A stretch of DNA of 64,000 bases, from assembly GCA_907163375.1 (NCBI GenBank), contig CAJQUW010001859.1:868001-932000 (forward strand), in the 5' to 3' direction. The position numbers and the translations under genes are program-made. Source of the DNA: Prostheceraeus crozeri. Taxonomy: Eukaryota; Platyhelminthes; Polycladida; Euryleptidae. The notes beneath the pieces were generated by a model that saw only the letters and a list, made by a program, of their open reading frames with translations, was not told the DNA's origin and did not search any database. Each line of letters begins with the position of its first letter. Positions within the stretch are counted from its first letter, which is position 1. Of the stretch, positions 19,880 through 38,269 are shown one piece after another.

Positions 19880-20110
19880 AGTAATGGGTAAAAGACCGTT
19901 CCAGGACACCATAAAATCAAAAAAATTGGTATCTTTAAAAACGACATAAATTCATGAATTTGAACCCTTTTTCAGGTTTTTAAGACCTAAATTCATGAAT
20001 TTAGTCCATTCAAAAAGTACCATTTTTTCAAAAAATGACATTTTTAAAAACGACATAAATTCATGATTTTGAACCTTTTTTCAGGTTATGAAGACCTAAA
20101 TTCATAAATC

Positions 20111-20136
20111 GGCTAAAGCCAGAGGAGCTTCGCTCC
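20111..20136. repeat. Double-hairpin element in left TIR
   Basis: Two small hairpins stand side by side: GGCTAAAGCC (20111-20120) and GGAGC-TTC-GCTCC (20124-20136). The same pair in reverse is found at 23240-23264 and 38012-38038. Confidence 0.85.
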
Positions 20137-20204
20137 GATTTGGGCGTTTTTAAAAATACCCAATTTTCAAATTTTTCAAAATCTCAAATTTGAGAATTAC
20201 AATC

Positions 20205-20420
20205 GGGCGAAGCCCTAGAACCTTCGGTTCGATTTTCACCGCTTAAATCATGTCCGTTCCAGGACACCGAAAATCATAAAAGTTAAGAATCTCAAATTTG
20301 TGATTATGACATTTTTCATTGCTTAAATCATGACCGTTCAAGGACACCGAAAAAATCATAAAAGTTAAGAATCTCAAAATTTGAGAATTACAATCGGGCG
20401 AAGCCCTAGAACCTTCGGTT
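20205..20420. repeat. Two double-hairpin elements in left TIR
   Basis: GGGC-GAA-GCCC then AACC-TTC-GGTT occurs at 20205-20229 and again at 20396-20420. The reverse-oriented copy lies in the right TIR at 37919-37943. Confidence 0.9.
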
Positions 20421-20552
20421 CGATTTTCATTGCTTAAATCATGACCGTTCAAGGACACCAAAAATCATAAAAGTTGAGAATTTCAAATTCATGAATTTTA
20501 TCCATCTTTCAGGTTTTTAAAATATATCATGTGACTAATAATATTTCTTTAA

Positions 20553-20625
20553 AAGTGGAAGAAACAAAAGTGGAAGAAGCCGCAAGAATATATCCTTCAA
20601 TATCATATGAACGTAGTTCTACTAC
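20553..20625 (+). pseudogene. Inverted fragment of the gene start at 36058-36130
   Basis: This stretch closely matches the reverse complement of 36058-36130, the first codons of the membrane protein gene near the right end (E-E-T-K...A-R-I-Y-P). It makes the inverted repeat extend inward past the TIR, with no gene continuing from it. Confidence 0.7.
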
Positions 20626-20676
20626 CCCCTCCCTTCTAACTTCTATGGGTCCCTTAAGAAATTTTTTTATTATAAA

Positions 20677-21138
20677 ATGAGCAACATAAATAAGTTTTTT
20701 AAATTATATGGAACGCAAACTACGACAAATTTCGACCTAAAGAAAATCGCAAATGAATTAGGAATAAAGAATTTTCATGTTCTAATGAGAGACGAATTAC
20801 AATTCCTAAAAAATAAGCCAACAGGAACCTTCAGTTCCCGGAACAAAGTTCCATCAATAACTGTAAATTTCGTAACCAATCTCCATACGTCAGATGAAAA
20901 AGGCGTACATTGGTCAGCAGGACAAAGAAATATAAACTGTTCAAATTATTATTTTGACTCATACGGACTTCCACCTACGAATGAAGTAACAGAAATACTT
21001 GGCAATGGAATTTATAATACGTTTCAAATTCAAAAACCGGGAACTACTTATTGTGGACAATTATGTTTATACGTTTTGTACAAATTACAAAAAGGAGTAT
21101 CATTTCTAGATATTATGTTAGAGTTAAACAATCTATAA
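20677..21138 (+). CDS. Adenain-like cysteine protease, nested element
   Basis: The 153-aa protein has the catalytic order H (V-H-W-S-A-G), D (Y-Y-F-D-S-Y-G-L-P-P), C (T-Y-C-G-Q-L-C). The N-terminus carries T-Q-T-T-T-N-F-D-L, which also appears in the fragment at 36131-36327. A pair of hairpins at 20824-20852 is read through in frame near residues 50-58. It should mature the capsid proteins of this element, several of which bear adenain-type sites. Confidence 0.9.
   Translation: MSNINKFFKLYGTQTTTNFDLKKIANELGIKNFHVLMRDELQFLKNKPTGTFSSRNKVPSITVNFVTNLHTSDEKGVHWSAGQRNINCSNYYFDSYGLPPTNEVTEILGNGIYNTFQIQKPGTTYCGQLCLYVLYKLQKGVSFLDIMLELNNL
20824..20852. repeat. Hairpin pair inside protease gene
   Basis: GGAAC-CTTCA-GTTCC (20824-20838) is followed by GGAAC-AAA-GTTCC (20840-20852). 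Both are translated in frame. The arrangement matches the double-hairpin elements elsewhere, with different stem sequences. Confidence 0.7.
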
Positions 21139-21172
21139 CTCAAGCGAAGCTAGCTAAAGCGCCACCTAAAGG

Positions 21173-22477
21173 TTAAAGCTCTGTTTTCTGTAATTCATTT
21201 TGATAAAAACGACCTCTGATATCCTCATTATCTAAATCTTTAATTTCATAAGTAATCGGATAACTTTGATTTATTTTAGAAACTTCAAATATTTCTTTAG
21301 TCCAATAGCCAACAAAGCCTTTTTCAAATTTATTCTTATATTTAAATATTCTAACTCTATCTCCAATTTTAAATTTCGGCTTAAGTTTCTGCAAATTCGG
21401 ATTACTCTCATTCAAATTATTATTCTCGAATATTTTCTTTCGTATCAAATCAGGGTCGTCAGAAGCATTCTTTGGGGTTTCTTCAATACCAGAATGAACT
21501 TTATTATTGTACTCTTCTACAACTCCTGGTAATATCTTCAACCATTTCTGATTTCCTTGCTGAGTAAATTTCTTGAATAATTTATTTTTTAACGTCCGAT
21601 TGAATCTTTCTATCACTACAGCTTTTCCTGCATTTTCAGTTGAATAAACAATTTCAAATAGCGGCTGAACGTTTCGGTTATAAAATTCCGATCCTTTATC
21701 AACAAACAATTTCCTTGGCTTTCTATTACTTTCTTTAAAGATTCCTTCAAACGCATATTTAACTGATAGACCACTTTTATTTTTTAAAGGCTTTACCCAA
21801 GTGTATCGTGTATATAAATCTATAACGGTCAATGCGTATTTGTAGTCCCTTTCATTCGGCATATGAATAAGATCAGCACTCCAAATATCATCTTTATTAA
21901 ATACTTTTACTTTCAATAAATATTTAGGTCTTCTATATTCCTTGTGGATTTCAGACGCATAAACGTCTAAATTATGATTTTCATTTAAACCCTGACCGAA
22001 TAATATTTTAGCTTGTAAAGCTTTTTTAACAAACATTCTTTCAATTTTTTCTCTAAATGTAGGATTCTGAATACTATCTAATTCTTGAATCATCTTCTTA
22101 TCAGCTGCATGTCGAGAATTTAGATCATGATTTCGATAAGCTAAATCATGCCTGTAAGCTGCGGCATCTACTCTATTTATTGGTTCTTCACCTGGTTTCG
22201 GATTATTATTCTCATCTAGTCTTATATCTAATCGAGTTCCTGGACCAGTATATGAATGACCAGGAAGATGTTTTTCTTTCGAATATTTACTCCAAATAAA
22301 TCCAGGAAAGTTTTCTAATGTTTTTTGTATATCACCACCGAAGTGGTATGGAACTTTGTTCTTGTCACCTCCAATATCCTGACAATGTGAGTTTTTATTT
22401 TTGTTTAATAGATAATTCAATAAATCTAAATTAGAAATTTTTAATTTAGTTAAATTTTCGGAATTTGTAGAATTCAT
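21173..22477 (-). CDS. Integrase fused to parvovirus-type phospholipase A2 domain
   Basis: From the ATG at 22477 the protein is about 434 aa. Residues 45-135 carry the PLA2 pattern of parvovirus VP1: a Y-T-G-P-G-T-x-L-D calcium-binding loop, then D-x-A-A-Y-R-H-D-L-A-Y with the catalytic H-D pair and Tyr. Residues 190-430 form the integrase core: D in I-W-S-A-D-L, D in F-V-D-K-G-S-E-F, E in I-E-R-F-N-R-T-L-K. There is no chromodomain. PLA2 domains breach endosomes in parvoviruses; here the fusion may be cleaved by the protease or made as one chain. Hairpins at 22334-22361 are translated in the PLA2 part. Confidence 0.85.
   Translation of the reverse strand: MNSTNSENLTKLKISNLDLLNYLLNKNKNSHCQDIGGDKNKVPYHFGGDIQKTLENFPGFIWSKYSKEKHLPGHSYTGPGTRLDIRLDENNNPKPGEEPINRVDAAAYRHDLAYRNHDLNSRHAADKKMIQELDSIQNPTFREKIERMFVKKALQAKILFGQGLNENHNLDVYASEIHKEYRRPKYLLKVKVFNKDDIWSADLIHMPNERDYKYALTVIDLYTRYTWVKPLKNKSGLSVKYAFEGIFKESNRKPRKLFVDKGSEFYNRNVQPLFEIVYSTENAGKAVVIERFNRTLKNKLFKKFTQQGNQKWLKILPGVVEEYNNKVHSGIEETPKNASDDPDLIRKKIFENNNLNESNPNLQKLKPKFKIGDRVRIFKYKNKFEKGFVGYWTKEIFEVSKINQSYPITYEIKDLDNEDIRGRFYQNELQKTEL
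22334..22361. repeat. Hairpin pair inside PLA2-integrase gene
   Basis: ACCAC-CGAA-GTGGT (22334-22347) precedes GAAC-TTT-GTTC (22351-22361). The pair lies in frame just before the PLA2 motif. The stems are weaker than in the polymerase copies. Confidence 0.55.
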
Positions 22478-22508
22478 TTTAAAAGATAAAATAAATGTTT
22501 TACCGAAA

Positions 22509-22523
22509 AGAACCAAAGGTTCT
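22509..22523. repeat. Single hairpin between integrase and minor capsid genes
   Basis: AGAACC-AAA-GGTTCT is a perfect 6-bp stem with a 3-nt loop, placed between two head-to-tail minus-strand genes. It may be a remnant of a double-hairpin element. Confidence 0.6.
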
Positions 22524-22530
22524 GAGGTTA

Positions 22531-23016: not shown

Positions 23017-23036
23017 TTTTAATAAAAAATTTTAAG

Positions 23037-23232
23037 TTATCAAAAATTTAAATCTATTCTAGTTATGAAAAAATTTTAAGTTACCAAAAAATTTAAATCT
23101 ATTCTAGTTATGAAAAAATTTTAAGTTACTAAAAAATTTTAAGTTACCAAAAAATTTTAATCTATTCTAGTTATGAAAAATTTTAAGTTAAGAATTTTTA
23201 ATCTATTCTAGTTATGAAAAAATTTTAATTAA
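23037..23232. repeat. AT-rich direct repeats between minor and major capsid genes
   Basis: About four imperfect copies of a unit with TCTATTCTAGTTATGAAAAA and TTTTAAGTTA, spaced by 40-60 bp, fill the gap upstream of the minor virion gene. They may hold promoter or replication signals. Confidence 0.8.
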
Positions 23233-23239
23233 CTTATCA

Positions 23240-23264
23240 GAGCGAAGCTCCTCTGGCTTTAGCC
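23240..23264. repeat. Double-hairpin element at the 3' end of the capsid gene
   Basis: GAGC-GAA-GCTC (23240-23250) and GGCTTTAGCC (23255-23264) lie just past the capsid stop. The same pair occurs in both TIRs. Confidence 0.85.
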
Positions 23265-24593
23265 TATCCTTACCATCTTTCCATTAAGAATTTCAATAGA
23301 ATATTTTACATCTTCTAGCAATAAACCATAAGCCATCAATGAAGTTGTGGAATCTTTCTTTTCAATATTAATTGTTACATCACAACCATTTTTAATAATA
23401 TCTTCAGATTGTGCACTTAAATCGAAACAGAAAATTGGATATAAATGTCTCCAATCTCCAGGAGTTAATTGTGGTTCAACTCCAAATTCTGTACAAAGAT
23501 TTCGATAAGAATCATATCCTTCCATAAATTGATTATTGGTATCATCGAATCTTAATGGATCAATTGGATATCGCGTTTGATTTAATGAAACTTGTAAACT
23601 TCGAATTGTATTAATATGAAAAATATTATTGTTCTTATCAAAACTTGGAGAATTATTTCTTTGAAATGTTAGTAATAAATATCTTGGAGTATTCGCAGTT
23701 CTAGAAAAATGCCAGTTAAATCTTTGTTCGGAAAAAGTTACTGAACTAGCAGTACGCTTTAGAAAATTTACTGGAATTGGTTTGTTAGTATTTAATCTTT
23801 TTGCAATAGCTGTTTCAACCTCTAAACTGGGAGTAATATGCTTAATCCACCATTCAAGTCTATCAATTTTTAAATATGCTTTTTTCCCAGTCTTACCAAA
23901 AAAGATTAATTCATTATTTGCTGTACGATGAATTATTAATTAAAATTTTAATTGATATGATATTTTATCATAATCTAAATATCCGAATAATGGAGACAAT
24001 GACCAATTTACTGTCTGTTTACTTTTTTTGTTAAATTCACGTCTTTCTTTATATGCATCATTATTTGTTTTATTTAAATGTTTTGCAATATTTTCTACAT
24101 CTTTCGCAATTCCTGCGGCATCTGTTCCAGCGTGAGTTAAATCATCAACAATTATACCATCATTAGTATCAGGAAACCAACCTTCGATTTCATACTTTTT
24201 ATTATTTTCACCAATTGTTATAAATCTAAGCATTGTATCAATTACACCTGGAGAATCACTTATTGTTTCTATATTTTGAGTTGCAACATCTAAACGCATT
24301 TGTGTAAATAATCTTGGAAAGAAATTATTCTCTAGTGCAATATTATCGGTTTCTGGTAATGGTGTTGTAAAATTGGCATCACTATACAAAGAATATTCAC
24401 AGTGTAAAAATGAATCAGGTAGATATAAATAACTCTGCTGATTATCAACTTCAAAAATTAAATCTCCTCCAGTATTTACTCTACTGGAAGATCCGGGATT
24501 CATAGCAATTCTTATATAGTCATTCTTTTTTTGATTATAACTGACGAACGGAGGATCGTCTAATCTAAATTTATTTTCGATAAGCGAAGACAT
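23259..24593 (-). pseudogene. Major capsid protein (hexon) gene with one in-frame stop
   Basis: The frame of 445 codons is a Polinton/adintovirus major capsid of the family that starts D-D-P-P-F-V-S-Y. It has L-E-N-N-F-F-P-R-L-F, S-D-S-P-G-V-I-D-T-M-L-R-F, L-E-W-W-I-K-H, L-K-R-T-A-S-S-V-T-F and P-I-F-C-F-D-L-S-A-Q. A single TAA at 23940-23942 interrupts it at about codon 218 with the same frame open on both sides. This is a double jelly-roll protein of a different branch from the outer capsid. Decay, recoding or a sequencing error could each explain the lone stop. Confidence 0.85.
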
Positions 24594-24688
24594 TTTTATA
24601 AAAAATAATTTGACTTTTTGTTTTTCTCACACACAGAAAAAATTCTGCTAAAATAATTTTACTTAAATAATTTTACTTAAATATAATT

Positions 24689-25198
24689 TTAGAATTTTGC
24701 TAGCCCATTACCTCTTATTTCTTCAATTGTTTTTTTATTATTTTTATTTTCATTATGTTTACTATTAGACGGAGCTCCGCTCCTCAAGGTTTCACCCCCC
24801 ACAGCTATGTTAGCAATTTTATTTTTTGTTTCATCTGAAAGTTTTTTTAAATTTTTTAGTTCTTCAGAATCATTCCTAAGTTTACGAATAGCTTCTAGTT
24901 GTTTTAATTCGTTTTGAGATTTAACAGCATTTGATATTGCACTAGCTGTACTACCTATAGCAGCTGCTCCTTTTGCAGCAGATGTAATCAAATCTTTATT
25001 ATTTTTAATTAAGTTAACGATACTTCCAATACCAGAAAAGATGCCAGCCCCTTCTTTTTGGAACGTCTTTTCTAGGAACTTTTGTGTTCCGACAGTTTCT
25101 ACACTATCATAATGGTACATAGGTTTCTGAGATGGTTCATGAGCAATTTTATTATTTGATGCAAAATGTTTAAGATTGTGTTTATAAATTATAGGCAT
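24689..25198 (-). CDS. pVI-like virion protein with C-terminal adenain site
   Basis: The 169-aa protein has an amphipathic middle (G-I-F-S-G-I-G-S-I-V then A-A-K-G-A-A-A-I-G-S-T) and ends E-I-R-G-N-G-L-A-K-F. I-R-G-N-G fits the adenain consensus (M/I/L)-x-G-x-G and sits where adenovirus pVI is cut. A short C-terminal peptide would be released. A GGAGC-TCC-GCTCC and GGT-TTC-ACC hairpin pair (24771-24796) is translated in frame near residues 136-143. Confidence 0.7.
   Translation of the reverse strand: MPIIYKHNLKHFASNNKIAHEPSQKPMYHYDSVETVGTQKFLEKTFQKEGAGIFSGIGSIVNLIKNNKDLITSAAKGAAAIGSTASAISNAVKSQNELKQLEAIRKLRNDSEELKNLKKLSDETKNKIANIAVGGETLRSGAPSNSKHNENKNNKKTIEEIRGNGLAKF
24771..24796. repeat. 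Hairpin pair inside pVI-like gene
   Basis: GGAGC-TCC-GCTCC (24771-24783) and GGT-TTC-ACC (24788-24796) form adjacent hairpins in a very AT-rich gene and are read in frame. Confidence 0.65.
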
Positions 25199-25250
25199 TT
25201 TTTAGGATTAAATTTGACTTTTGGGAAAAATATCTACGTTAATATTTACG

Positions 25251-26139: not shown

Positions 26140-26151
26140 TTTTAAAACAAT

Positions 26152-26243: not shown

Positions 26244-26244
26244 A

Positions 26245-27561
26245 ATGGAAAATCCAAATTTAAAAAAATTATATTCGCCCGCATCATCCTGTTCTTCTTA
26301 TTCGACGAGATCAACGGGATTTGAAAATAAATGTTTTGATAATAATAATAATAATAATAATCCATGTATAGATGTTAATATTTTATTTCAATTACAAGCC
26401 GAAATATTTAGAGAACAGACTAAAGGTTTACCTTCTATAGAAACTAATTATTGTTTATTTCCGGGGGATCCATTTATTAAATTTATGGAGATTGTAAGTA
26501 AATATAATGATGTAGCTTATGTTGAATTAAATAAAGAAAATATGGTTATAATAGGTCATAATAATGTTTATGGATTTATTAGAGCAGTGTTACCAATTAG
26601 TAATACTGATTGGATAGAAACTAAAATTATTAATTACATCAATATTAAAGAATTAGTTAAAAAATTAAAATCTTTTTCGAAAGAAAAAATTAGATTATTT
26701 GTTGACGATCAAAATCAATATAACATTCACATAGAGAGTAAAAAACATAATGAAGAATTATTATGTCAAGTTTATTATAGAGACACAATTTATAAACAAG
26801 AAACATTAGAAATGCCCCAAAGATATGATGATGATACGTATATAGGATTATATTCCAACTTAAATATTAATTTATTAAAATCTTATATAAATGGTTTAGC
26901 TCAACAAGAGAAAATTTATATGTGGTCTACACCTTATACTATTAACAATGACCATAATCATATTCATAATAAACGAACCGAAGATTCTAGGGCTTTGCCC
27001 GATCTTAAAGAATCTTATAATAATAATGATGATTCTGTAACATCTGAAAAAGGTGTAAATGGTAAAAAAGATTATAAAAATATTAGTAATTATAAAAATA
27101 TTAGTAATTATAAAAATTTATCTAAATTTCATTTTCTTACAATTGAAAATAATAATGATGGCATAGTTGAAGATACTGTTAGACAACTATGTGTGGGGTC
27201 TACAAAATTTAAATTAGGATTTACATCTAATCAATTTAAAATTTTATCATCTTTAACAAAAACTAAAAGTGATTCAAATTATGGTGGTGTTATTAAATTT
27301 TCCAAAAGAGATCAAAGACCAATATTTTTCTCTATTATATTATTATCAGATAAAAGATGTAATTTAGAATTAGATATTCCAATAAGAGAATGGTATCCTA
27401 TCATGGAAGGGCATCCTATACCAAAAAGTGTAATTTATGATGATGAAGAAACAATTTATGATGATGATGAAGAATCAATTGATGATGATGATGATGAATC
27501 AATAGTTAGTGAAAAAAAATTTAAATTATCTTTTGATAAAACATTATATGATGAAACTTAA
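26245..27561 (+). CDS. Unrecognised protein next to polymerase, possible sliding clamp
   Basis: The 438-aa protein is Asn/Asp rich with an Asn run near the N-terminus, an internal Y-K-N-I-S-N repeat and an acidic tail. Two regions (about residues 75-235 and 290-385) each show alternating strand patterns such as Y-V-E-L-N-K-E-N-M-V-I-I-G and F-K-L-G-F-T-S-N-Q-F. This could fit a PCNA-like or processivity factor fold, and the gene lies just upstream of the polymerase on the same strand. No diagnostic motif is present, so this is inference. A decayed double-hairpin element (26976-27000) is translated in the linker. Confidence 0.5.
   Translation: MENPNLKKLYSPASSCSSYSTRSTGFENKCFDNNNNNNNPCIDVNILFQLQAEIFREQTKGLPSIETNYCLFPGDPFIKFMEIVSKYNDVAYVELNKENMVIIGHNNVYGFIRAVLPISNTDWIETKIINYINIKELVKKLKSFSKEKIRLFVDDQNQYNIHIESKKHNEELLCQVYYRDTIYKQETLEMPQRYDDDTYIGLYSNLNINLLKSYINGLAQQEKIYMWSTPYTINNDHNHIHNKRTEDSRALPDLKESYNNNDDSVTSEKGVNGKKDYKNISNYKNISNYKNLSKFHFLTIENNNDGIVEDTVRQLCVGSTKFKLGFTSNQFKILSSLTKTKSDSNYGGVIKFSKRDQRPIFFSIILLSDKRCNLELDIPIREWYPIMEGHPIPKSVIYDDEETIYDDDEESIDDDDDESIVSEKKFKLSFDKTLYDET
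26976..27000. repeat. Decayed double-hairpin element inside clamp-like gene
   Basis: AACC-GAA-GATT with one mismatch precedes GGGC-TTT-GCCC. It is read in frame as R-T-E-D-S-R-A-L-P-D, a variant of the peptide seen in the polymerase. Confidence 0.8.
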
Positions 27562-27630: not shown

Positions 27631-28016
27631 GAAAAAAATAACTAAAGAACGTGAAATATATAATAATATAAAATAACACTCAAGTCCTTGATATTAGAAT
27701 GTTTATATCTAAAATTAAAACACAAATTTTTTTCTTAAATTTTCTCTAAAAAAATAAAAAAAATGGAAAATACCAAGTTTTATTGTGTCTTATGTAAAAA
27801 AAAGTTGCAAACAAAAAGAAGTTATCAATCTCATTTAAATAGTAAATTGCATTTACAAAATGTAGAACGAGTTGATGAAGGAAATATATTAAAATTAAAT
27901 AGTTATAAAAACTATCTAGAAACATTGCCTACTGATATAAGAGTTAAAAAAATGTTTGATGATTATTCACATTCGGAATATAAAAAAGTTTTTAATAGTG
28001 AAGATGAGACCATACA

Positions 28017-28080
28017 AACCGAAGGTTCTAGGGCTTCGCCCGTACATGTGACATCGGAGATGTCTTCCAGGGCTTCGCCC
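28017..28080. repeat. Two adjacent double-hairpin elements inside polymerase gene
   Basis: The first is AACC-GAA-GGTT then GGGC-TTC-GCCC (28017-28041). The second is ACATC-GGA-GATGT then GGGC-TTC-GCCC (28051-28080). Both are in frame and give R-A-S-P-V endings. The left hairpin differs in sequence between the two but keeps its pairing. Confidence 0.9.
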
Positions 28081-28154
28081 GTACCAGATGGAAGATATTT
28101 ATTTGGCGATACTGATGAATTTGATGAAGCTGAACGAAACGATGAAGCCTTACA

Positions 28155-28240
28155 AACAGAAGGTTCTAGGGCTTCGCCCGTAACAGATATAAAATATTTA
28201 TTTAATCAGTCTTTTCGCACCGAAGGTTCCAGGGCTTCGC
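28155..28240. repeat. Two double-hairpin elements inside polymerase gene
   Basis: GGGC-TTC-GCCC hairpins at about 28169-28179 and 28229-28239 are each preceded by a GAA-GGTT arm. The first has lost one left-arm pair. Both are read as E-G-S-R-A-S-P-V. Confidence 0.85.
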
Positions 28241-29764
28241 CCGTTGAATATAATGAAACCGATAAAACTTTTTCTGATATTCTAACCAACTTTTATAATA
28301 TATTTAAGAAATCTTTCAAATGTTATATGAATGTAGAAGTACTTTATACAAAAAATGGACCTGATGGAATTCCTGAAGAAATAATACAAGGACATTTTAC
28401 AAATTCACAAGAAATTCATAATGTAAATGATATACAACCCATATTTGAATCGATGATACTTAAATTAGAAAATTGTATAATTGAAGCCCAGTTACGTGAA
28501 TCTGGTTGGAGATTTGTTAAAATAATATCTAAGAAAATAGTAATTGATAAATATAAAAATAATACTGGTGGTAGTTATGTTTCTTTACCTTTCAGTTCAC
28601 CACAAATAATCAACATAAAAAATGAAGATGATTATTGTTTTCTGTGGAGTATTATAGCACATTTACATCCTGCAGAATATCATAAAGAAAGACTAAGTCA
28701 TTATAATAAAGAAGAATACATAAATGAATTTGATCTTTCTGATGGCTTAGATGAATTTCCATATGATTATAATAGGTTAATAAAGTTTCATAAAAAGAAT
28801 AAAAATTTAATAGAAGTAAATGTTTTTGAATTAAATGTGAATTATGTTTCTATTGGTAAAATTATTCCACTTTACTCAGATTCAAAAAAATTTTATTTGA
28901 ATAATAAAAATTTATGTCAATCAGAAATAGTATATAATGATAGAGGAAATTACATGCATCATAATATTTTTTACCAAGGAAATATAATATGTACTGAAAA
29001 ATTTGAACTTGTTAAAACACTATCACCAATAATGATTAATCATAATAATTATAAAGGACGTACTGATGATTATAATTACAAATATTCATCTTTATCTTCA
29101 GAATATCAACAAAAATTAGAAAATTTAAATAAAAGTTTACAAAAATGTAAAACAGATTATCAACAACAAACAAAAATATTAGTACAAGAATATGGCCATA
29201 AATATGAAAATAAGATAGAAACGATTCAAAAATTAAATGAAGAAAATAATGAATTAAATAATGAAGAAAATGAAACCAATCAAAAAATAAATGAATCTTT
29301 AAGAAAATGTCTACAACAATATAAAGAACAATATGATAAAGTATATATTTATCAGCTACAAATATTAAATCAAAATTATTATCAAAATACATTTAATATT
29401 ACAAAAGAAATTAATGAAACACATGAAATATATCAAGATAAATTTGAAAAACTAGAACAGTCAAAACAACCAGCACAAGCGAATATATTATATTATCAGG
29501 GTCATTTTATATTGTGTAAAGATGTTTCTATATTTACAAAAACTTCAGATAATAAAAATTTTCCTTGTCTTCAATGTATGACAAGTTTTAAAACTTTAGA
29601 AGAAATGAATAGACATTTGGAGAATTGCCAACAAAATGAAGCAGTTCAAAATACTTTTCCAAAAGATGATTATTTAGAATATAATAAATGGTATTTCAAA
29701 AATAAAGTACCCTTTACTATTTATTGTGATTTTGAAGCATATAATGTTAATATGACACAAAATC

Positions 29765-29789
29765 GAACGGAAAGTTCCAGGGCTTCACC
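29765..29789. repeat. Decayed double-hairpin element inside polymerase gene
   Basis: GAAC-GGAAA-GTTC keeps its stem, while the right hairpin has mutated to GGGC-TTC-ACC. It is read as R-T-E-S-S-R-A-S-P-D. Confidence 0.75.
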
Positions 29790-29793
29790 TGAT

Positions 29794-29913
29794 TCTGAAA
29801 ATTATAATTCTGAAAATTATAATTCTGAAAATTATAATTCTGAAAATTATAATCCTGAAAATTATAATTCTGAAAATTATAATTCTGAAAATTATAATTC
29901 TGAAAATTATAAT
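29794..29913 (+). repeat. 15-bp tandem repeat coding S-E-N-Y-N
   Basis: Eight units of TCTGAAAATTATAAT lie in frame in the polymerase gene after Exo I; one unit has C in place of T. It encodes a low-complexity linker. Confidence 0.95.
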
Positions 29914-30276
29914 TCTGAAAAAAGTGCGCCTGAAAGAAGTGCGCCTGGAAAAAGTTCAACTGAACAAAGTAAAGAAAAATATTTATTTGAACAAAAACCA
30001 TTATGTTGGGGAATGTACATTCATTCAAATTATCCTGAATTATTTAAATCAGAATATTATCAATACTATGGTGAAGATAGTTCAGAAATGTTTACAAAGA
30101 AAGTAGAAGAATTACAAAATTATTTTTCACAATTGCTTGAAACAAATATACCGATGATGCCATTAACAGAAAAAGAAAAATTAAATTTTATTAATGAAAC
30201 AAAATGTTATTACTGTGGAAGAGAATTTACAAAAAATTATAAAAATGGCAAAGGTAGATATCTTGATAGGCGAAGC

Positions 30277-30291
30277 GACGGCTCTGCCGTC
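30277..30291. repeat. Hairpin inside polymerase zinc-finger region
   Basis: GACGGC-TCT-GCCGTC is a perfect 6-bp stem just before the conserved K-D-H-D-H block. It extends this region by about eight residues and follows a partial GGCGAAGC arm. Confidence 0.75.
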
Positions 30292-30665
30292 AAGGTAAAA
30301 GATCATGATCATCTAAATGGATTATATAGAGGTGCAGCACATAATTCTTGTAATCTTAATGCTAATAAATTTAAATATAACTTTGTTCCTTTATATTTCT
30401 ATAATGGTTCTAAATATGATTTCCATCTAGTAATGAAAGATTTATTTTCATCTGAAAAATTACAACAACAAATAAATGTACTATGTAAAACAGAAGAAGA
30501 ATATTTTTCAATGCAATTAGGTTGTATTAGAATTTTAGATGCATTTAGATTTTTTACTCCTTATTCATTAGATGTTATGGGAAAAACTTTGAAATCTGAA
30601 CAATGTAAAATATTAAATAAATATAATTTAAAACCTTTAAAAGGCATATTTCCGTATGAGTACAT

Positions 30666-30733
30666 AGCCTTCGGCTCACAGTCGAAGACTGATATAACTG
30701 GAGATAAAACCTGTGGTTCACAGTCGAAGACTG
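30666..30733. repeat. Two double-hairpin elements of a second type inside polymerase gene
   Basis: AGCC-TTC-GGCT then CAGTC-GAA-GACTG (30666-30691), and AACC-TGT-GGTT then CAGTC-GAA-GACTG (30708-30733). Each pair is joined by CA. The right hairpin is the same in both and the left differs but stays paired. Both are in frame. Confidence 0.9.
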
Positions 30734-31382
30734 GTTTTAATTCTGTGAATAAAATTATGGAAGAAGAACAACTTCCTCCAATAAATAAATTTAAATCAAC
30801 ATTAAAACAATCACAATTATCAGACGAAGACTATGCAGAAGCTGAAAAAAATTGGAGAGAGTTAAATTGTAAAACAATGTATGATTATACAATGAAATAT
30901 CTTCAGATAGATGTATTAATACTAGCTGATCTTTTCGAAAACTTTCGTGACATGTGTTTAGAATATTACGGAATAGATCCATGTTATTGTTATTCTACAC
31001 CAGGTTTAACATGGTTAGCAGGATTAAAACATACAAATGTTAAACTTAAACATTATAAAGAAAATACATAATATAAATTATTATTTTTTGAATCTGGAAT
31101 TAGAGGTGGAGTTTCATCAGTTTTAGGTAATAGATATGTTAAATGTTATAATAAGAAAGTAAATCCACATACATATGGAATAATGAAACCTTTATCTCCA
31201 GAAGAAAAAGAAAAAATATTAGAAATTTTTCGAACGAAACAAGAAGGAGTAGACCGTGAAAAAGCAATTGATGAATTCATGAGAGAAAACTATTTGTTAT
31301 ATTATGATTTTAATAGCTTATATTCTTCTTGCATGATACAAGAATTACCAACAGGTGAAATGTCATGGTGTAATATTCGTAC

Positions 31383-31413
31383 GACATCAGAGATGTCTAC
31401 TAGGGCTTCGCCC
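31383..31413. repeat. Double-hairpin element inside polymerase gene
   Basis: GACATC-AGA-GATGTC and GGGC-TTC-GCCC are read in frame between motif A and the next conserved block. Confidence 0.9.
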
Positions 31414-32318
31414 TTTCTTGATTATCAAAGAACATATGATGGTGAAAATAATTTTGGTTATGTATATGAAGTTGATTTAGTATACCCTGATTATATAAAA
31501 GATAAAACAAAATATTTTCCTTTCTGTCCCGAAAACAAAATTCCTAATATAGAAGATTTTTCAGATTATCAAAAATCTATAATACCGAAAAAATACAGAC
31601 CAACAAAAAAACTTATGTTAACACAAAGCAATAAAGGAAAGTATGTTGTTGAAGGAAGAATGCTAGATTGGTATTTAGATCATGGAATGATTCTCACCAA
31701 AATACATCGAAAACTAGAGTATAGAAAATCTAAATGGTTAAAAAATTATATAGAGTTCAATATTGAAAAACGTAAAATAGCTAAAAGAAATAAAGATGAT
31801 TTTGGAAACGTGTTCTTCAAATTAATGAATAATGCATTTTATGGTAAGACTTTAGAAAATGTGCGTAATAGACAAAATATTGAAATAGTTTATGATAAAG
31901 ATAGGTTTCAAAATTTAACAAGGAAACCTACATATAAAAGAACTACTAGATTTAGTGATGAACTATGTGCTGTACATTTACGTCGAATTAGCGTAAAACA
32001 TGATAAGTTTAATTTCATTGGTTTCACTATATTAGAATTAGCTAAACTATTTATGTATAGATTTATATATGATTATTTAGCACCTGCTTATGGCAAAAAC
32101 TATAAATTACACTTTACAGATACGGATTCTGTTTTCTTAGAATTAACAATACCGTATAATTCTACACTTGATGAAGAAATAGATAAAATAAAAGATATCA
32201 TTCATCCTTCTGATTTATGTAAAGTAAAAGATGAATTAGAAGGAAATGAAGATTTCATAACAGAAGCTATATTTTTAAAATCTAAATGTTACTGTTATGA
32301 TACAACTAATAATACTAG

Positions 32319-32349
32319 GACATCGGAGATGTCTTCCAGGGCTTCGCCC
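32319..32349. repeat. Double-hairpin element inside polymerase gene
   Basis: GACATC-GGA-GATGTC and GGGC-TTC-GCCC are read as E-M-S-S-R-A-S-P-V near the C-terminus of the polymerase. Confidence 0.9.
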
Positions 32350-32687
32350 GTTAAAACACATAAAACATTAAAAGGAATTTCAAAGGCATCAGTGGCTAAT
32401 CAAATAACATTTCAAGATTATAAAAATGCATTATTTAATAATGAAATAAAAACAGCATGTAATTATAGACTTAATTCAAAAAAACATAACATGTATTTAA
32501 AAGAAGAACATAAATTAGCATTAGATCCATTTGATGATAAAAGAAAAATTTTACCTGATGGAATAACTACTGAACCTTTTTAATTTTCTAATTTCTAAGA
32601 TAGACAAATTTGATATATATAAAATAAAAAAAAATATTGTAACACTATATTTGTATATTTTTATCACTCCGCGAAAATATTTTCGAT

Positions 32688-32726
32688 CGACTTTCAGTCG
32701 GGGCGAAGCCCCTCGAGGCGATGCCT
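32688..32726. repeat. Hairpin cluster between polymerase and ATPase genes
   Basis: CGACT-TTC-AGTCG (32688-32700), GGGGC-GAA-GCCCC (32700-32712) and AGGC-GAT-GCCT (about 32716-32726) lie in tandem between converging genes. Besides being a double-hairpin element, they could act in transcript ending. Confidence 0.85.
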
Positions 32727-33492
32727 AGTCAGAGAACAATTGTTCGATAACTCTTTCATGAATTTTTTTATCAATATTAATTGTAATGAAGCCATAATCT
32801 TTTGACCAAGCATTATTACACGATTGTTTAAATTCATCTTTATTTCTTACGCATAAATCTCTTAACAAATCACTTAAGTTTCTTGCATTTATTTCAAATA
32901 GTATAAATATATTTGCATTCTTTCTAATAACACTTCCGTCTAATGAATACATACTTTGTGTTAAATAAAATACACTACAGTTATTATGTCTACCTCTTGT
33001 GAAATAATTTCTCTGAACTGACTGATTTCTATCATTAACACAATCATCAAAAATTACACAATGTTTCATTGTTTTATCTAGTTTACTAGGATCCTGCATA
33101 TTACCACTATCATCTATTAATTGTATCTTTATATGGTTATTTTTATTAGATTCTACTAACTGATTATTTTTTGCTGCTTCTTCACACCACGAACTTATTT
33201 CTTCTTCATCTTCAGATTTTTCATATTCTTTGAATAATGAAGCAATTGCTGTTTTTTTAAGATTATTTTCAAATCCATATTTTAAAAATTGATAGACGGG
33301 TTGTTCTGCCGTTGTTGTATAAATTATAAGATTGTTATAATCCAAAAAATTTGGAGTTGTTAAAATTTTAAACAATAGATACGTTTTTCCACAACCTGAT
33401 CTTCCACAAATAACTGACAAAACTTTATTAGATAAATTTGGATGATGATTAAATTTAAGTTTTTTTTTATTTAATGGAGGTAGTTCACTCAT
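32725..33492 (-). CDS. Genome packaging ATPase, nested element
   Basis: The 255-aa protein has Walker A (G-R-S-G-C-G-K-T) near residue 30, Walker B (C-V-I-F-D-D-C) near 145, and Q-S at the sensor position (Y-L-T-Q-S). It is longer than the outer ATPase owing to an acidic insert near residue 90. The gene starts with an A-run ATG. Confidence 0.9.
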   Translation of the reverse strand: MSELPPLNKKKLKFNHHPNLSNKVLSVICGRSGCGKTYLLFKILTTPNFLDYNNLIIYTTTAEQPVYQFLKYGFENNLKKTAIASLFKEYEKSEDEEEISSWCEEAAKNNQLVESNKNNHIKIQLIDDSGNMQDPSKLDKTMKHCVIFDDCVNDRNQSVQRNYFTRGRHNNCSVFYLTQSMYSLDGSVIRKNANIFILFEINARNLSDLLRDLCVRNKDEFKQSCNNAWSKDYGFITINIDKKIHERVIEQLFSD

Positions 33493-33580
33493 TTTTTAAT
33501 AAAAAAATTTATTTTTATTTTTTTTATTTTTTGTTTCTAAAGAAGAAGAAAATTAAACTTCTCTAGCTTCGCGTAGGAGT

Positions 33581-34369
33581 TTATACCTCTCGAACCAAAA
33601 GATCTATCATAATCTCTTCACCTCCAAAATTTATTTCTTGTCCTTTCTCATCAGTGATTCTAATGCCAATGTTGTTAATAGTTTTTCTTGTAATAGGAAA
33701 ATATATTAATGTTTGTGGAAATACATTTAGTCTATAACCAATGGGTACAGTAAAAGCTGGAAAACTGAATATTAAATTTGATAATTTACCATTTATATAT
33801 CCTCCTTCAATAATGTCACAATGTACAACAATTGAATTTATTTCAGTTATTTTTGGAATCTTCTCACCTAAATGATAACCTTGACTATAGGTTTGTTTAT
33901 TAAATCCTAATAGCTTTGACAATGATCTATCATGATTAAAATCAACTTGATGATTTTCGTCTAAAGTAAGAGAAAATTTGTTAACTGCCGGTTCAACTGC
34001 AAAATGTAATTGTTTCTTATCTTTAAATGATATACCTAAATGTCTCTTAATTTCATTTGATATTGTTTCAACTTCGTAAGAACCAGGAAGAAAAGTTAAT
34101 ATTTTCCACGTTTTGCCTTTATCAGTAGAATATCTAAATTGATCATTCACATCTTTGATAACGTTTTGAATAGTGTTAAATGTAGAGAAACTAGTCAATG
34201 CAATTTGATAATTTTTATTTTGTTCCAAATGTAGAATGGGTTCTAAATTACAAGTGTGTGATGAAGTAGTTGTTATAATTTTTAACGTCGTACTAAATTT
34301 TGATGAACCCAAAATCTCTGTCAAATTTTCTAAATGATTATTAATTTTGTCTAAATCTGCTGAACACAT
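33581..34369 (-). CDS. Penton-like minor capsid protein, nested element
   Basis: The 262-aa protein has the beta-rich pattern of Polinton penton proteins, with G-S-Y-E-V-E-T-I-S-N-E-I, a Leu-G-F-N strand (S-K-L-L-G-F-N-K) and a C-terminal I-G-I-R-I-T-D-E-K-G. It lies next to the ATPase on the same strand. It is about half as long as the outer penton proteins. Confidence 0.65.
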   Translation of the reverse strand: MCSADLDKINNHLENLTEILGSSKFSTTLKIITTTSSHTCNLEPILHLEQNKNYQIALTSFSTFNTIQNVIKDVNDQFRYSTDKGKTWKILTFLPGSYEVETISNEIKRHLGISFKDKKQLHFAVEPAVNKFSLTLDENHQVDFNHDRSLSKLLGFNKQTYSQGYHLGEKIPKITEINSIVVHCDIIEGGYINGKLSNLIFSFPAFTVPIGYRLNVFPQTLIYFPITRKTINNIGIRITDEKGQEINFGGEEIMIDLLVREV

Positions 34370-34435
34370 TTTTAAACTAAAAAAATTAAATAAATATTTT
34401 TTTAAAAAAAATTAGAAACAACATATTTCAGCTAC

Positions 34436-34504
34436 GGGCGAAGCCCTGGAGGACATCAGAGATGACCGGTTCGGGCGAAGCCCTGGAGGACATCAGAGAT
34501 GTCC
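34436..34504. repeat. Two tandem double-hairpin elements at a gene end
   Basis: GGGC-GAA-GCCC with a decayed GGACATC arm (34436-34467) is followed by GGGC-GAA-GCCC and GGACATC-AGA-GATGTCC (34473-34504). The last one overlaps the stop region of the gene at 34493. Confidence 0.9.
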
Positions 34505-35314
34505 GGTTATACGTTTATAATCCTCTTCATTTAGAATCTTCTTTTCTAACAGTCTTTTCAATATAGCATGAATTTCATTGAAACTAGAATTATGTCCTTC
34601 TTTTATTGCAGATATTAAAATATTTAATCTATTTAGTAATTCTTGTGGATCATCTGGTAAAAATACAGTTGTTTCAGTTTTCTGTTTTTCAGATAAACCT
34701 TTCCCTACTTTAACTCCCGTTGATAATAAATTTTCTAATTGTTTATAACGTCTAAGAGATTTTACTGCACCAACTCTGTCTAACATAGCTTTATATTTTA
34801 TGAGATCTTCTACAGCATAATTATTTAAATCTGCTCCTCTTAAAAGATTAACAAAATTTCTATCTAAATTAAAAGGAGATTTATCTGGTGAAAAAATTAT
34901 ACCTCGAAAAGGTTGTGGAAATATTTCTTTTTGTCCGAGATAAAATCTAGGTATTGTTTTTCCATCTATAAATGAAATAGAATGTTCAAATTGCATAGAT
35001 TTTGGTAATTTCTTATTAATGTTTGATTCTAGTAATCCATAGTCATCTAATATAGTTTTGTGCTCTGGATCTGTTATATCAATTTGTTTATCATTATTTG
35101 TACTTTCTTTTTCAAGAGTTTTAAATGGTTTCATAGTTTTCTCAAAATCAGTTTTTACTTGCTCGGTTTGCTGCATTTGTTCAAACATATCAGATTGAAT
35201 ACCAGCTTTTATCATTCTATGTTGAAGATGATTTTCTTTCATAATATTTCTTTGTTTTATTAACTCTTCTAATTGTTTTATTCTTTTAAAATTATCAGCT
35301 CTAATTTTATCCAT
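34493..35314 (-). CDS. Conserved Polinton structural protein, nested element
   Basis: From the A-run ATG at 35314 the protein has 273 aa. It has a helical N-terminal third (K-Q-L-E-E-L-I-K-Q-R), a middle with I-P-R-F-Y-L-G and F-N-L-D-R-N-F-V-N-L-L-R-G, then A-V-E-D-L-I-K-Y and a helical end. This pattern is common to Polintons and may be the counterpart of the outer gene at 7446. Role in the virion unknown. Confidence 0.6.
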   Translation of the reverse strand: MDKIRADNFKRIKQLEELIKQRNIMKENHLQHRMIKAGIQSDMFEQMQQTEQVKTDFEKTMKPFKTLEKESTNNDKQIDITDPEHKTILDDYGLLESNINKKLPKSMQFEHSISFIDGKTIPRFYLGQKEIFPQPFRGIIFSPDKSPFNLDRNFVNLLRGADLNNYAVEDLIKYKAMLDRVGAVKSLRRYKQLENLLSTGVKVGKGLSEKQKTETTVFLPDDPQELLNRLNILISAIKEGHNSSFNEIHAILKRLLEKKILNEEDYKRITGHL

Positions 35315-35435
35315 TTTTAAAATATAATATTTGAATTTTGTGGTAACATTGGAATACAGCAAAAACATTTTACTGAACAAATTATTTTTTTATTGCTTTG
35401 TTGTTTGACATCTTTTCGTTTAAAGTTTTCTCGTT

Positions 35436-36130
35436 TTAAGTTTTGTTTAATAAAGTTTTGCTTAAATTTTCGCTTAAAGTTTTTAGCTCTTCTAAAAAAA
35501 TTTTGTAATTTTCTTCATTAGAAATTTTGCCATCACTAGAAATTTTGCCATCCTGTTTATTCTTATCATCAACTTTTTCGGACTTTAAATGAAAGGTTTG
35601 ATTTACTTCATTAGCTATTTGATCAAATTTTTCAATCTCATCTAACGTAATAACATTATCATCACATACTCTTTGAAAGTAGTAATGTAGTTTATCATAG
35701 ACTTCTTTAATATGTAAATGCTTAGTTTTTAATGATTTTCGTTTCTTAGTTATTAAAGATTTATCTAACATTGTAACAAGTGAAGTTGCAAAAACGCCCG
35801 TACCTGTTAAAGCTGTAGCAACTACTGGAATTACTAAAACACCAGAAGATATAACAATTGTTAAAGCACCTAAACTTATTGTTAAGAATATGCCAATTCC
35901 TTGTGTTACATTCTTAACTTTAGTCCATCTCTTTCTTAATTTTTTTTATAATGCTCTAATCTTAATAATAATTGAGATTCCTTATCTTTCATATAGCGTA
36001 CTCTATCTTTGTGTTTTTCAATGTTCATTTTTTCAATGTTAATCTTTTCAATGTCCATTAAAGTAGAACTACGTTCATATGATAACGAAGGATATATTCT
36101 TGCGGTTTCTTCCATTTTTGTTTCTTCCAT
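35436..36130 (-). pseudogene. Membrane structural protein with homopolymer frameshift
   Basis: The first part (64 codons) has a Lys/Glu/Met-rich helix. After a shift at an 8-base T run (35940-35947) the frame continues with two hydrophobic segments rich in Gly, Ala, Ile and Val, then a Lys-rich turn and a conserved end (H-I-K-E-V, D-N-V-I-T-L-D-E-I-E-K-F). This set is a known uncharacterised Polinton family with membrane spans and an EF-hand-like D-N-x-I-T-x-D-E loop. The shift is similar to that in the fiber-like gene. Confidence 0.65.
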
Positions 36131-36327
36131 TTTTTAAAGAAATATTTTGAATAAATATTTTGAAAACAATCTTCTGAAATGCTATTTAAATCGAAATACG
36201 TAGTTGTTTGTTTGTCGTATATTTCTAAGAACTCAGTCATGTTATTAACCTGAGGTAATATATCACCTATATTACTCAGTATAACTGTCGGATTTTCATC
36301 ATTCATTTTAAATGAAATAAATTCCAA
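36131..36327 (-). pseudogene. Fragment of a protease gene N-terminus
   Basis: The frame includes Q-T-T-T-Y-F-D-L-N, matching Q-T-T-T-N-F-D-L-K at the start of the protease at 20677, then ends. It lies in inverted order relative to that gene. It suggests that the inverted repeat once reached into the protease gene or that a second protease copy was lost. Confidence 0.6.
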
Positions 36328-36389
36328 TAACTGTAATAATGACTACTTCTTGTACAGGAAAATGAAAACAACGGCAGTGTATTTTGCAT

Positions 36390-36806
36390 CAAATATAATA
36401 ATACAACAATCAATCTTATCATACAATTGTACAATGTCAGTCTACTACCATTAGACTGGAGAACAAAAGAAAATTTAATTACATTTCAAAATAATCCAAA
36501 ATGCAATACTACTAAGTTCCATGAATCATTCTTAAATACCAAATATAATAATACAACAATCAATCTTATCATACAATTGTACAATGTCAGTCTACTACCA
36601 TTAGACTGGAGAACAAAAGAAAATTTAATTACATTTCAAAATAATCCAAAATGTGTTACTACTAAGTTCCATGAATCATTCTTAAATACCAAAGATTATG
36701 TTACATACTGAAATATAGATCTATACAATAGCAGTCTACTACCATTAGACTGGAGAACAAAAGAAAATTTAATTACATTTCAAAATAATCCAAAATGTGT
36801 TACTAC
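36390..36806 (+). repeat. Tandem repeat with 150-bp unit, about 2.6 copies
   Basis: Two full units (about 36390 and 36540) and a partial third (from about 36728) are nearly identical, with TCAGTCTACTACCATTAGAC as landmark. The period is a multiple of three and the first two units form one open frame of 94 codons. No known motif. Confidence 0.9.
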
Positions 36807-36893
36807 TTATAAATAAGTCTTCATAAATATGTATACATCAAATATGCATGTACATTGCACATATCTTAAAAAGTGAAACAACACAGTTAATGT

Positions 36894-37499
36894 TCATTCA
36901 TCTTGGGAACCAAACCTCATTTCTTCTATAGTTGTCGGTTGATTCAATTTTTCTATATAAATTTTGATTTCTTTAAAATGTTTTCTAACAAAACTAATGG
37001 GCATTGATGAATTTAAAAATAATACGTGTGGTAGAATTAGATCTGATAAGTTCATCAAGAAATAACAATAACTTACGTTATAGGAAATTCTAAATAGTTC
37101 CAAGTTTGCCACAAATCTGTTTTTTTTATTGTCACTCAATTCCAGAATTCTTTTAAATCCATAACCTTGATAAGCAGCACTTCTCAGCAACGACCCATGG
37201 TGCACTTTATCACTTGCAATCAGTTTTGAAATCATAGTAGCACTATCTTCGATGGTAATGAAATGTTCTTTTGTAACATTGAACTGAGGAATTGTAGTAG
37301 TGTTAAGATACTGTTCTATTTTTACTGTAATATCCTCCACTTGTTTTTGAGAGTCCAATTTGTTCTTCTTTCTCGATTGAATTTCTAACTTCCACTCTTC
37401 AAAGTATTTATTCGCAGTTTCCTTGTGCTCTTCTTTAATTAAGTTTAGTAAAATCGGCATGTAAAACGAAAAAGCTTCTGCGGCAGTACGTTTTGGCAT
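36894..37499 (-). CDS. Unrecognised protein in right end of nested element
   Basis: From ATG 37499 the frame gives 201 aa starting M-P-K-R-T. A charged helical first third is followed by a more hydrophobic region (F-R-I-S-Y-N-V-S-Y-C-Y-F-L-M-N-L-S) and P-H-V-L-F-L-N-S-S. It is less AT-rich than its neighbours and lies between two repeats, so it could be cargo from elsewhere. No motif recognised. Confidence 0.5.
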   Translation of the reverse strand: MPKRTAAEAFSFYMPILLNLIKEEHKETANKYFEEWKLEIQSRKKNKLDSQKQVEDITVKIEQYLNTTTIPQFNVTKEHFITIEDSATMISKLIASDKVHHGSLLRSAAYQGYGFKRILELSDNKKNRFVANLELFRISYNVSYCYFLMNLSDLILPHVLFLNSSMPISFVRKHFKEIKIYIEKLNQPTTIEEMRFGSQDE

Positions 37500-37770
37500 T
37501 TTGCAATAAGGAAAGAAAACAGTCACTAGTTATGATTAATGGAATTGTAAATGAAGTCTTACTTCCTACATGCTGCAATTATATTCAACGTCATTTTAAT
37601 CTTTAATCTTTAATACGGGTTGCTTGCTTTGTAATTCAATGGCTCAGGAATGCGATAAGCAGCTGCAATTATATCATGTATGCGGGAGCAGCTGTTCCCT
37701 ACAATTGGGTAGTTCATCAGAGTGCAAAGCAGTAACAATAACGGGCATTCTAAGAGATTGTGTTACATTC

Positions 37771-38269
37771 TTAAAGAAATATTATTAGTCACATGATATA
37801 TTTTAAAAACCTGAAAGATGGATAAAATTCATGAATTTGAAATTCTTAACTTTTCTGATTTTTTCGGTGTCCGGTTTTACATGACCTGGAACGGTCATGA
37901 TTTTCAAGGTAAAAATCGAACCGAAGGTTCTAGGGCTTCGCCCGATTGTAATTCTCAAATTTTGAGATTTTGAAAAATTTGAAAATTGGGTATTTTTAAA
38001 AACGCCCAAATCGGAGCGAAGCTCCTCTGGCTTTAGCCGATTTATGAATTTAGGTCTTCATAACCTGAAAAAAGGTTCAAAATCATGAATTTATGTCGTT
38101 TTTAAAAATGTCATTTTTTGAAAAAATGGTACTTTTTGAATGGACTAAATTCATGAATTTAGGTCTTAAAAACCTGAAAAAGGGTTCAAATTCATGAATT
38201 TATGTCGTTTTTAAAGATACCAATTTTTTTGATTTTATGGTGTCCTGGAACGGTCTTTTGCCCATTACT
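37771..38269 (-). repeat. Right TIR of nested Polinton
   Basis: This is the inverted counterpart of 19880-20552. It carries double-hairpin elements at 37919-37943 (AACC-GAA-GGTT, GGGC-TTC-GCCC) and 38012-38038. Confidence 0.9.

Follow-up and report, generated by a model that had tools for sequence, protein, structure and literature searches.

Double-hairpin units inserted in the genes of a flatworm Polinton are likely small mobile elements of this Polinton family

Double-hairpin elements, in which small hairpins lie adjacent to one another in many copies, are found in the mitochondria of Allomyces, and the Byp elements of Magnusiomyces mitochondria are short in-gene inserts that are skipped in translation. 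Hairpin or palindromic elements are also described from yeast mitochondria (the GC clusters, GC42), sponges, Rickettsia and the mitochondria of Nematomorpha. Here, we analyze a 64,000-nucleotide stretch of the genome of the flatworm Prostheceraeus crozeri (contig CAJQUW010001859.1; referred to as the window, and numbered from its first letter), in which an inner Polinton carries GC-rich units, each consisting of two adjacent hairpins, in its genes and terminal inverted repeats (TIRs). The units are insertions that are present in some copies of the Polinton and missing in others, and are likely non-autonomous mobile elements of this Polinton family.

The Allomyces elements differ from these units in being organellar, and the reading frame is kept in the units, so that skipping, as for the Byp elements, is not needed. 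The excerpts of PMC4478555 describe the yeast GC clusters as GC-rich hairpins in AT-rich DNA that are present or absent depending on the strain, are flanked by short repeats (AG or ACT in yeast), merge and shuffle modules, and take varied forms at one site, all as found for the units; the 13-mer that they share has, by our reading, a TTC triloop like that of the units. By contrast, the yeast clusters are mitochondrial and mostly intergenic, whereas the units reside in a nuclear virus-like element, mostly in genes and with the frame kept. The repetitive hairpin elements of sponges are likewise adjacent small hairpins in many copies, but they are organellar and occupy intergenic stretches and rRNA genes, and 'in-frame' is not a term used in PMC2800124. 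The palindromic elements of Rickettsia are, in the partial text of PMC3767692, inserted in reading frames at solvent-exposed places without destroying them; however, they are bacterial, measure 100-150 bp and occupy the same sites in all orthologues compared, whereas the units measure 24-42 nt in genes and are polymorphic between copies that are 99% identical. The coding palindromes of Nematomorpha mitochondria share the inverted repeats in coding sequence, but there, according to the excerpts of PMC6649704, both arms encode conserved residues and the palindromes are not inserts. The units thus work like yeast GC clusters and are tolerated like the Rickettsia elements, and are members of neither by place or size. 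Among the matches listed, which comprised titles and abstract starts and covered few subscription papers, none described units of this kind in a Polinton or another DNA virus. PMC12220804 and PMC11071308 contain no such hairpin or palindrome element, and PMC5799277, in the part available, concerns other hairpins.

The inner Polinton spans positions 19880-38269 and carries all double-hairpin units of the window that are matched by seven family patterns. It displays the full set of Polinton features: TIRs of 312 nt with 99% identity (19880-20191 and 37958-38269), a 6-bp target duplication, TACAAG, on either flank (19874-19879 and 38270-38275), a type B DNA polymerase, an A32-like ATPase, an rve integrase fused to a phospholipase A2 (PLA2)-like domain, and a double jelly-roll capsid protein. 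Pfam does not recognize the protease, whose name comes from the first-pass annotation, made from the sequence alone, and from its protein relatives. The window copy is decayed, because it has in-frame stops outside the units in the polymerase (31069-31071) and capsid (23940-23942) genes that are absent from the other copies covering these places (0 of 14 and 0 of 6, respectively).

A strict scan for pairs of perfect hairpins (stem length 4 or more, loops of 3-5, spacing up to 8 nt) revealed 15 double hairpins in the inner Polinton, as against a mean of 0.12 and a maximum of 1 in 100 dinucleotide shuffles. In the flanks, of 19.9 and 25.7 kb, the same scan returned 4 and 2 pairs, none from the unit families, and the seven family patterns, with up to 4 substitutions, detected no unit in the rest of the window (45.6 kb). 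About 23 units were counted by hand in the Polinton when imperfect ones were included, and all 17 coordinates at which the first-pass annotation had placed units hold a unit or a partly decayed one. The units are as follows, with Polinton copies compared by DNA alignment and counted as filled or empty among those covering each site.

20108-20137, minus strand: F4 unit (GGAGC + GGCTAAAGCC) in the left TIR, 30 nt with AT repeat; 3 filled, 6 empty of 10.
20202-20231, minus strand: F1 unit (AACC-GAA-GGTT + GGGC-TTC-GCCC), left TIR; 4 filled, 5 empty of 9.
20393-20422, minus strand: F1 unit, left TIR, second copy; 7 filled, 4 empty of 11.
20818-20850, plus strand: unit in the protease gene, 33 nt; 4 filled, 1 empty of 5.
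22330-22362, minus strand: unit in the PLA2-integrase gene, 33 nt; 5 filled, 1 empty of 6.
23236-23267, minus strand: F4 unit at the capsid gene end, containing its stop codon; 5 filled, 1 empty, 1 other of 7.
24767-24793, minus strand: unit in the pVI-like gene, 27 nt; 5 filled, 2 empty of 7.
26974-27003, plus strand: F1 unit in the clamp-like gene (RTEDSRALPD); 9 of 9 filled, no empty site seen.
28013-28081, plus strand: two adjacent units, F1 then F2, in the polymerase, elsewhere F1 only, F2 only or none; 9 filled, 2 empty of 11.
28148-28180, plus strand: F1 unit in the polymerase, F2 in another copy; 3 filled, 3 empty, 1 other of 7.
28214-28243, plus strand: F1 unit in the polymerase, F2 in two other copies; 7 filled, 4 empty, 1 other of 12.
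29762-29791, plus strand: partly decayed F1 unit in the polymerase; 12 filled, 1 empty of 13.
30268-30291, plus strand: 24-nt unit in the polymerase with one strong hairpin, within the endonuclease VII-like stretch; 6 filled, 6 empty, 1 other of 13.
30664-30693, plus strand: F3 unit (GCC-GGC + CAGTC-GAA-GACTG) in the polymerase; 8 filled, 7 empty of 15.
30705-30734, plus strand: F3 unit in the polymerase; 10 filled, 5 empty of 15.
31376-31414, plus strand: F2 unit (GACATC-AGA-GATGTC + GGGC-TTC-GCCC) in the polymerase, 39 nt; 4 filled, 11 empty of 15.
32315-32350, plus strand: F2 unit in the polymerase, 36 nt, with a TTA repeat in two other copies; 3 filled, 12 empty of 15.
32682-32742, plus strand: 61-nt insert with three hairpins at the ATPase gene end, containing its stop codon; 5 filled, 6 empty of 11.
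34435-34508, minus strand: two tandem F2 units of 37 nt each between genes, containing the stop of the gene at 34493-35317; at least one unit in 14 of 14 copies, no empty site.
37915-37944, plus strand: F1 unit, right TIR; 3 filled, 1 empty of 4.
38010-38039, plus strand: F4 unit, right TIR; 4 filled, 1 empty of 5, though the alignment of the empty copy is doubtful; the empty form is present in other TIRs.

Aligned copies of the Polinton differ by the insertion of whole units at sites that run from TIR to TIR, 31 of which were tested. Confinement to a single duplication block, named in the first-pass annotation as a refuting outcome, was not found, although a local tandem duplication makes 28012 and 28150 sister sites. 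An empty copy exists elsewhere for 19 of the 21 sites filled in the window, the exceptions being 26974 and 34434, and for 18 of the 21 it has no base left over. Counted per site and copy, 102 of 116 empty cells retain no extra base. The empty copy at 38009 is doubtful. At 31035, seven copies are filled and the window is empty; at 20954, 25072 and 29905, the alignment anchors caught no filled copy, though units are visible in the copies' sequences. Two copies, L071 and L055, agree at 99.37% of 8,840 ungapped bases, yet a whole unit of 30 nt and another of 39 nt are present in L071 and missing from L055; the remaining gaps of at least 6 nt measure 15 nt (three gaps) and 116 nt (one gap), the latter being a TIR repeat that contains an F1 unit of its own. 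The same polymorphism bears on a reading of the hairpins as working signals (terminators, packaging or replication signals) selected at fixed places. Such signals would agree with the several units at gene ends and in TIRs, and with the stop codons of the capsid, the ATPase and the gene at 34493, all three of which fall inside units; yet 19 of the 21 window-filled sites are polymorphic, TIR units included, and most sites are mid-gene, so we regard this reading as very improbable. Terminators in particular were ruled out by the polymorphism.

The genome containing the window comprises 2,048,925,868 bases in 14,165 contigs, and GGGCTTCGCCC occurs in it 13,298 times (6,782 + 6,516), as against 36 (17 + 19) for the reversed-letter control. 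Genes of the same Polinton family were found in 21 of 24 stretches of 9.9 kb (17 of the first 20 and all of the last four), a sample that was fetched for containing GGGCTTCGCCC and therefore favours Polintons rather than representing the genome at random. The longest DNA matches of those 17 stretches show 87-97% identity in 16 cases and 81% in L061. The remaining three of the first 20 comprise one that contains only a TIR and two, L056 and L062, with a lone unrelated hairpin; the latter two were rejected as unit carriers, as each has one longer inverted repeat around GGGCTTCGCCC and no double hairpin. All 123 units recognized by the seven family patterns lie within 150 nt of Polinton-like DNA (171 kb), a location that is not organellar, and the remaining 66.6 kb of fetched DNA contain none. 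GC-rich codons can form short stems, so codon usage or base composition might produce hairpins by chance, but the 15 strict pairs against a shuffle mean of 0.12, the 13,298 occurrences against 36 and the presence or absence of whole units leave this explanation a negligible probability.

Outside this genome, the search of related virus genomes proposed in the first-pass annotation was made with exact unit patterns and yielded no true match in IMG/VR. One pattern matched 50 contigs, once each, and these matches were set aside as chance: none has the first hairpin ahead, and 47 of the 50 loci have at least 50% GC. The other patterns had no match there at all. Exact unit patterns likewise had no match in prokaryote genomes, no protein relative of the element was confirmed in IMG/VR, and Rfam at gathering scores found nothing in the window.

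The comparison with related proteins that the first-pass annotation had suggested turned out in favour of insertion, in that relatives mostly lack the unit residues and empty DNA sites exist in the same genome. The polymerase relatives P0121 and P0123 (73-81% identity) are without unit-encoded residues where they overlap the window protein, P0121 starting after the first four units and P0123 stopping before 30664. The more distant P0122 and P0124 also lack them, and have residues of their own near 30268 and 32315. In the protease, the insert is missing in 13 of the 15 relatives aligned (of 92 found), including P0243-P0247 (73-79% identity), and two have an insert at the same place, P0241 (89%) and P0242 (78%, two residues shorter). 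The end of the integrase that carries a unit is too variable among protein relatives to judge. Six-residue unit words occur in 5 proteins among 332 fetched database relatives, and those of a reversed-word control in 4; of the five, P0241, P0242 and P0246 look real, weakly so for P0246 given the control. Residues 10-16 of P0246, a metagenome protease relative, read SPRTFGL, the reverse reading of F1, which is a weak hint that units may exist in Polintons elsewhere.

No unit in a gene of the window breaks its reading frame, as the first-pass annotation had noted. Intact inserts at 21 coding sites measure 24, 27, 30, 33, 36, 39 or 42 nt, always a multiple of three, and the coding site with a 42-nt insert also has forms of 57 and 72 nt, again multiples of three; some inserts between genes measure 37, 58 or 61 nt. 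Among filled cells, which are not independent and include small neighbouring gaps, multiples of three account for 101 of 107 in coding and 25 of 50 in non-coding DNA. With sites grouped by hand, the corresponding values are 21 of 21 and 5 of 8 (Fisher p = 0.015, or 0.022 without three less certain sites). The F1 unit reads TEGSRASP, or nearly so, at 4 of 5 polymerase sites and is reversed at 29908, where it reads GQALEPSV; in its TCTAG form 4 of 6 frames are open, and in its TCCAG form all 6. The predicted fold of the polymerase half has a mean pLDDT of 84.1, with values below 50 at 105-113, 258-262 and 416-422. The first and last of these stretches are two unit loops, each placed between two strands in the predicted model, although their low pLDDT may also reflect that few relatives have the insert.

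Direct repeats flank most of the insertions, their length being taken as the distance over which each insertion can be slid at 26 hand-grouped sites. With the best event per site, the repeat is at least 2 nt at 21 sites and at least 3 nt at 14 (34434 being counted through its tandem duplication); with a random event per site, the averages are 16.7 and 10.3 sites of 26. Random placement of the units would give 16.3% and 4.8%, respectively. A 3-nt target duplication was our first guess and now seems less probable, because all 22 of the 30-nt TIR events give an AT repeat only; a 2-nt duplication of an AT-rich dinucleotide fits best. Once the AT repeat is set aside, most unit cores begin with C and end with G. 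Viewed as miniature inverted-repeat transposable elements (MITEs), the units have a target-site duplication (21 of 26 sites); their cores, mostly C...G, are too short to be compared for shared terminal inverted repeats, and the rve integrase is the sole transposase among the frames scanned. At 31376, three copies with the target TTC have TTC on either side of the unit, one with ATC has ATC on either side, and the empty copies have TTC or ATC. Both target alleles are therefore doubled, as separate insertions at the same nucleotide would leave them, whereas copying of a filled site needs one more change.

About a dozen hairpin pairs were distinguished by hand, and they share modules: GGGC-TTC-GCCC is common to F1 and F2, AACC-GAA-GGTT to F1 and a pVI unit, and AAC-AAA-GTTCC to the protease and integrase units. 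Different units also occupy the same nucleotide, F1 or F2 being found, depending on the copy, at 28012, 28150, 28213 and 20535; at 28012, F1 and F2 stand in tandem in the window and in L066. If such a tandem arose first, recombination across the common halves would convert one of the two into the other. Changes in F2 fall mostly outside the stems (12 over 20 stem positions, 54 over 14 others). The first-hairpin triloop of the F2 units at 34435-34508, TCT, is the reverse complement of the AGA at 31376 and is thus inverted with respect to the second hairpin, as if one hairpin had been flipped in place. A 15-nt tandem repeat (ENYNS) at 29792-29920 directly follows the decayed polymerase unit, and other copies have reversed F1 units in this array.

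In a tree of 15 copies built from 2,109 polymerase columns, unit presence changes 2-5 times at each of nine sites, and the diverged copy L061 has units at 31035 and 32315 in common with other copies. Filled sites therefore come and go, by insertion, loss or exchange. These observations also agree with units that are immobile now, having been inherited from a loaded ancestor and spread by recombination or gene conversion among Polinton copies, with precise losses making the empty sites. The homoplasy on the tree, the two sites shared with L061, the position of 28012 and 28150 within a local duplication, and the three extra bases that L073 keeps at its otherwise empty 28213, a possible footprint of loss, are all expected from such a history. 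However, two units separate copies that are 99.37% identical, each target allele at 31376 is duplicated with its own base, so that conversion needs a further change, a single nucleotide position carries F1 in some copies and F2 in others, and no leftover base is seen in 102 of 116 empty cells. A present-day immobility of the units is thus distinctly unlikely. The first-pass annotation's proposal of selfish inserts tolerated as linkers fits the data and is strengthened by the two whole-unit differences between near-identical copies; mobility, selfishness and translation are inferred from the sequences.

The inner Polinton itself interrupts what looks like the polymerase of an outer Polinton, a putative DNA polymerase gene split into parts at 16178-19947 and 38509-39345. 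The outer element, in which no such units occur, has an rve integrase by Pfam and an endonuclease VII match in its polymerase frame. Within the inner Polinton, three tandem copies of about 150 nt lie at 36390-36833, and the gene at 33581 ends in a tandem repeat of 21 nt (33581-33600) whose copy number differs among Polinton copies (L059, L063, L064). Outside it, a 14-nt hairpin, CAGTCCGAAGACTG, occurs three times (40998, 41521 and 41997); it resembles one F3 hairpin, probably by coincidence.

The mobile-element reading may be put in mechanistic terms as follows. An existing unit would serve as the source of a new copy, which would be ligated into a break with a 2-nt stagger at an AT-rich dinucleotide. 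The most likely occasion is the joint replication of many Polinton genomes, when strands can fold, and fill-in of the stagger would give the AT, TT or TA repeat. A Polinton-borne junction cutter could open the feet of the hairpins and leave staggered ends. A core of 3n+1 nucleotides plus the 2 nt would preserve any frame in any phase, and the unit would be translated as a tolerated loop such as RTEGSRASPV. The exchange of hairpins and the spread of filled sites would follow from recombination, both among units and among copies of the Polinton.

A candidate for the cutter is offered by the polymerase itself, which contains an endonuclease VII-like stretch (30100-30399) with the 24-nt unit 30268-30291 inside. 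With a cut-off of 23.6 bits, the endonuclease VII scores are 29.6 for the outer polymerase frame, 25.8 for P0123, 23.4 for P0121 and 19.8 for the window slice of 100 residues; the slice found no true match among solved structures. T4 endonuclease VII makes slightly staggered cuts close to the junction. It is counted among the cruciform-acting proteins in the excerpts of PMC3176155, and PMC4678824, in the part available, concerns endonuclease VII. The endonuclease VII-like domain of the polymerase is proposed as the candidate because cruciforms are substrates of this kind of enzyme; the proposal is a guess from kinship. In its fullest form, the proposal is of a mobile element of about 30-40 nt that parasitises only a Polinton, whose core plus duplicated target makes whole codons and is harmless in essential genes, and whose dozen or so families exchange hairpins and revisit the same nucleotide because the endonuclease VII-like domain of the polymerase opens target and hairpin. 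We put forward this combination tentatively, at somewhat below an even chance.

An RNA route would differ in that a transcribed hairpin pair is reverse transcribed before being joined into a break, as suspected for yeast GC42. The window has putative reverse transcriptase frames at 50271-52162 with a GIY-YIG-like end, presumably Penelope-like from their motifs, and these frames have no Pfam match at E 0.01. The architecture and short direct repeats of the units match those of the yeast GC clusters, for which an RNA step is suspected in the excerpts of PMC4478555. By contrast, units in genes have both orientations, that at 29908 in the polymerase being reversed, and units are also present in the TIRs, which leads us to consider this route unlikely.

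Several observations weigh against the units being mobile elements that insert by the proposed mechanism. At any one site, gain and precise loss are indistinguishable, none of the 12 inner branches of the tree reaches the tool's mark for firm support, and the extra bases in L073 may record a loss; insertion would nevertheless outweigh loss in the preferred reading. Site 26974, which also lies in a repeat, has no empty copy. The direct repeat is only 1 nt at 5 of 26 sites (and 0 nt at none), and duplications of 2 and 3 nt are not separable. As to length, 6 of 107 filled coding cells are not multiples of three, the 30-nt reading is less sure at three of the 21 coding sites that lie in repeats (26974, 29252, 29908), and the multiple of three is partly a fixed property of the unit, because the non-coding TIR units also measure 30 nt. 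The hairpins themselves are not uniformly conserved: F1 stems vary nearly as much as its loops (34 changes over 18 positions, 26 over 10), and compensatory change is almost nil, with none in F1, F2 and F4 and one pair in F3. Some units are weak, 30268-30291 being one strong hairpin with a second of only 2 bp, 26974 and 29762 being partly decayed, and the second hairpin of 24767 being poor. Finally, in the window the endonuclease VII match falls short of the cut-off and has a unit in its midst, the main frames of the element, scanned with Pfam and PHROGs, revealed no transposase above cut-off besides the rve integrase, and the target duplication of that integrase is 6 bp here, unlike that of the units.

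How the hairpin micro-elements of organelles and Rickettsia move has been a question of decades. The units described here are nuclear and very numerous, their sites are found both filled and empty, and single units distinguish nearly identical Polinton copies, so that rate, target rule and loss would be measurable. They suggest that protein loops can be gained repeatedly in a DNA virus lineage without loss of the reading frame, and offer a candidate enzyme for the process.

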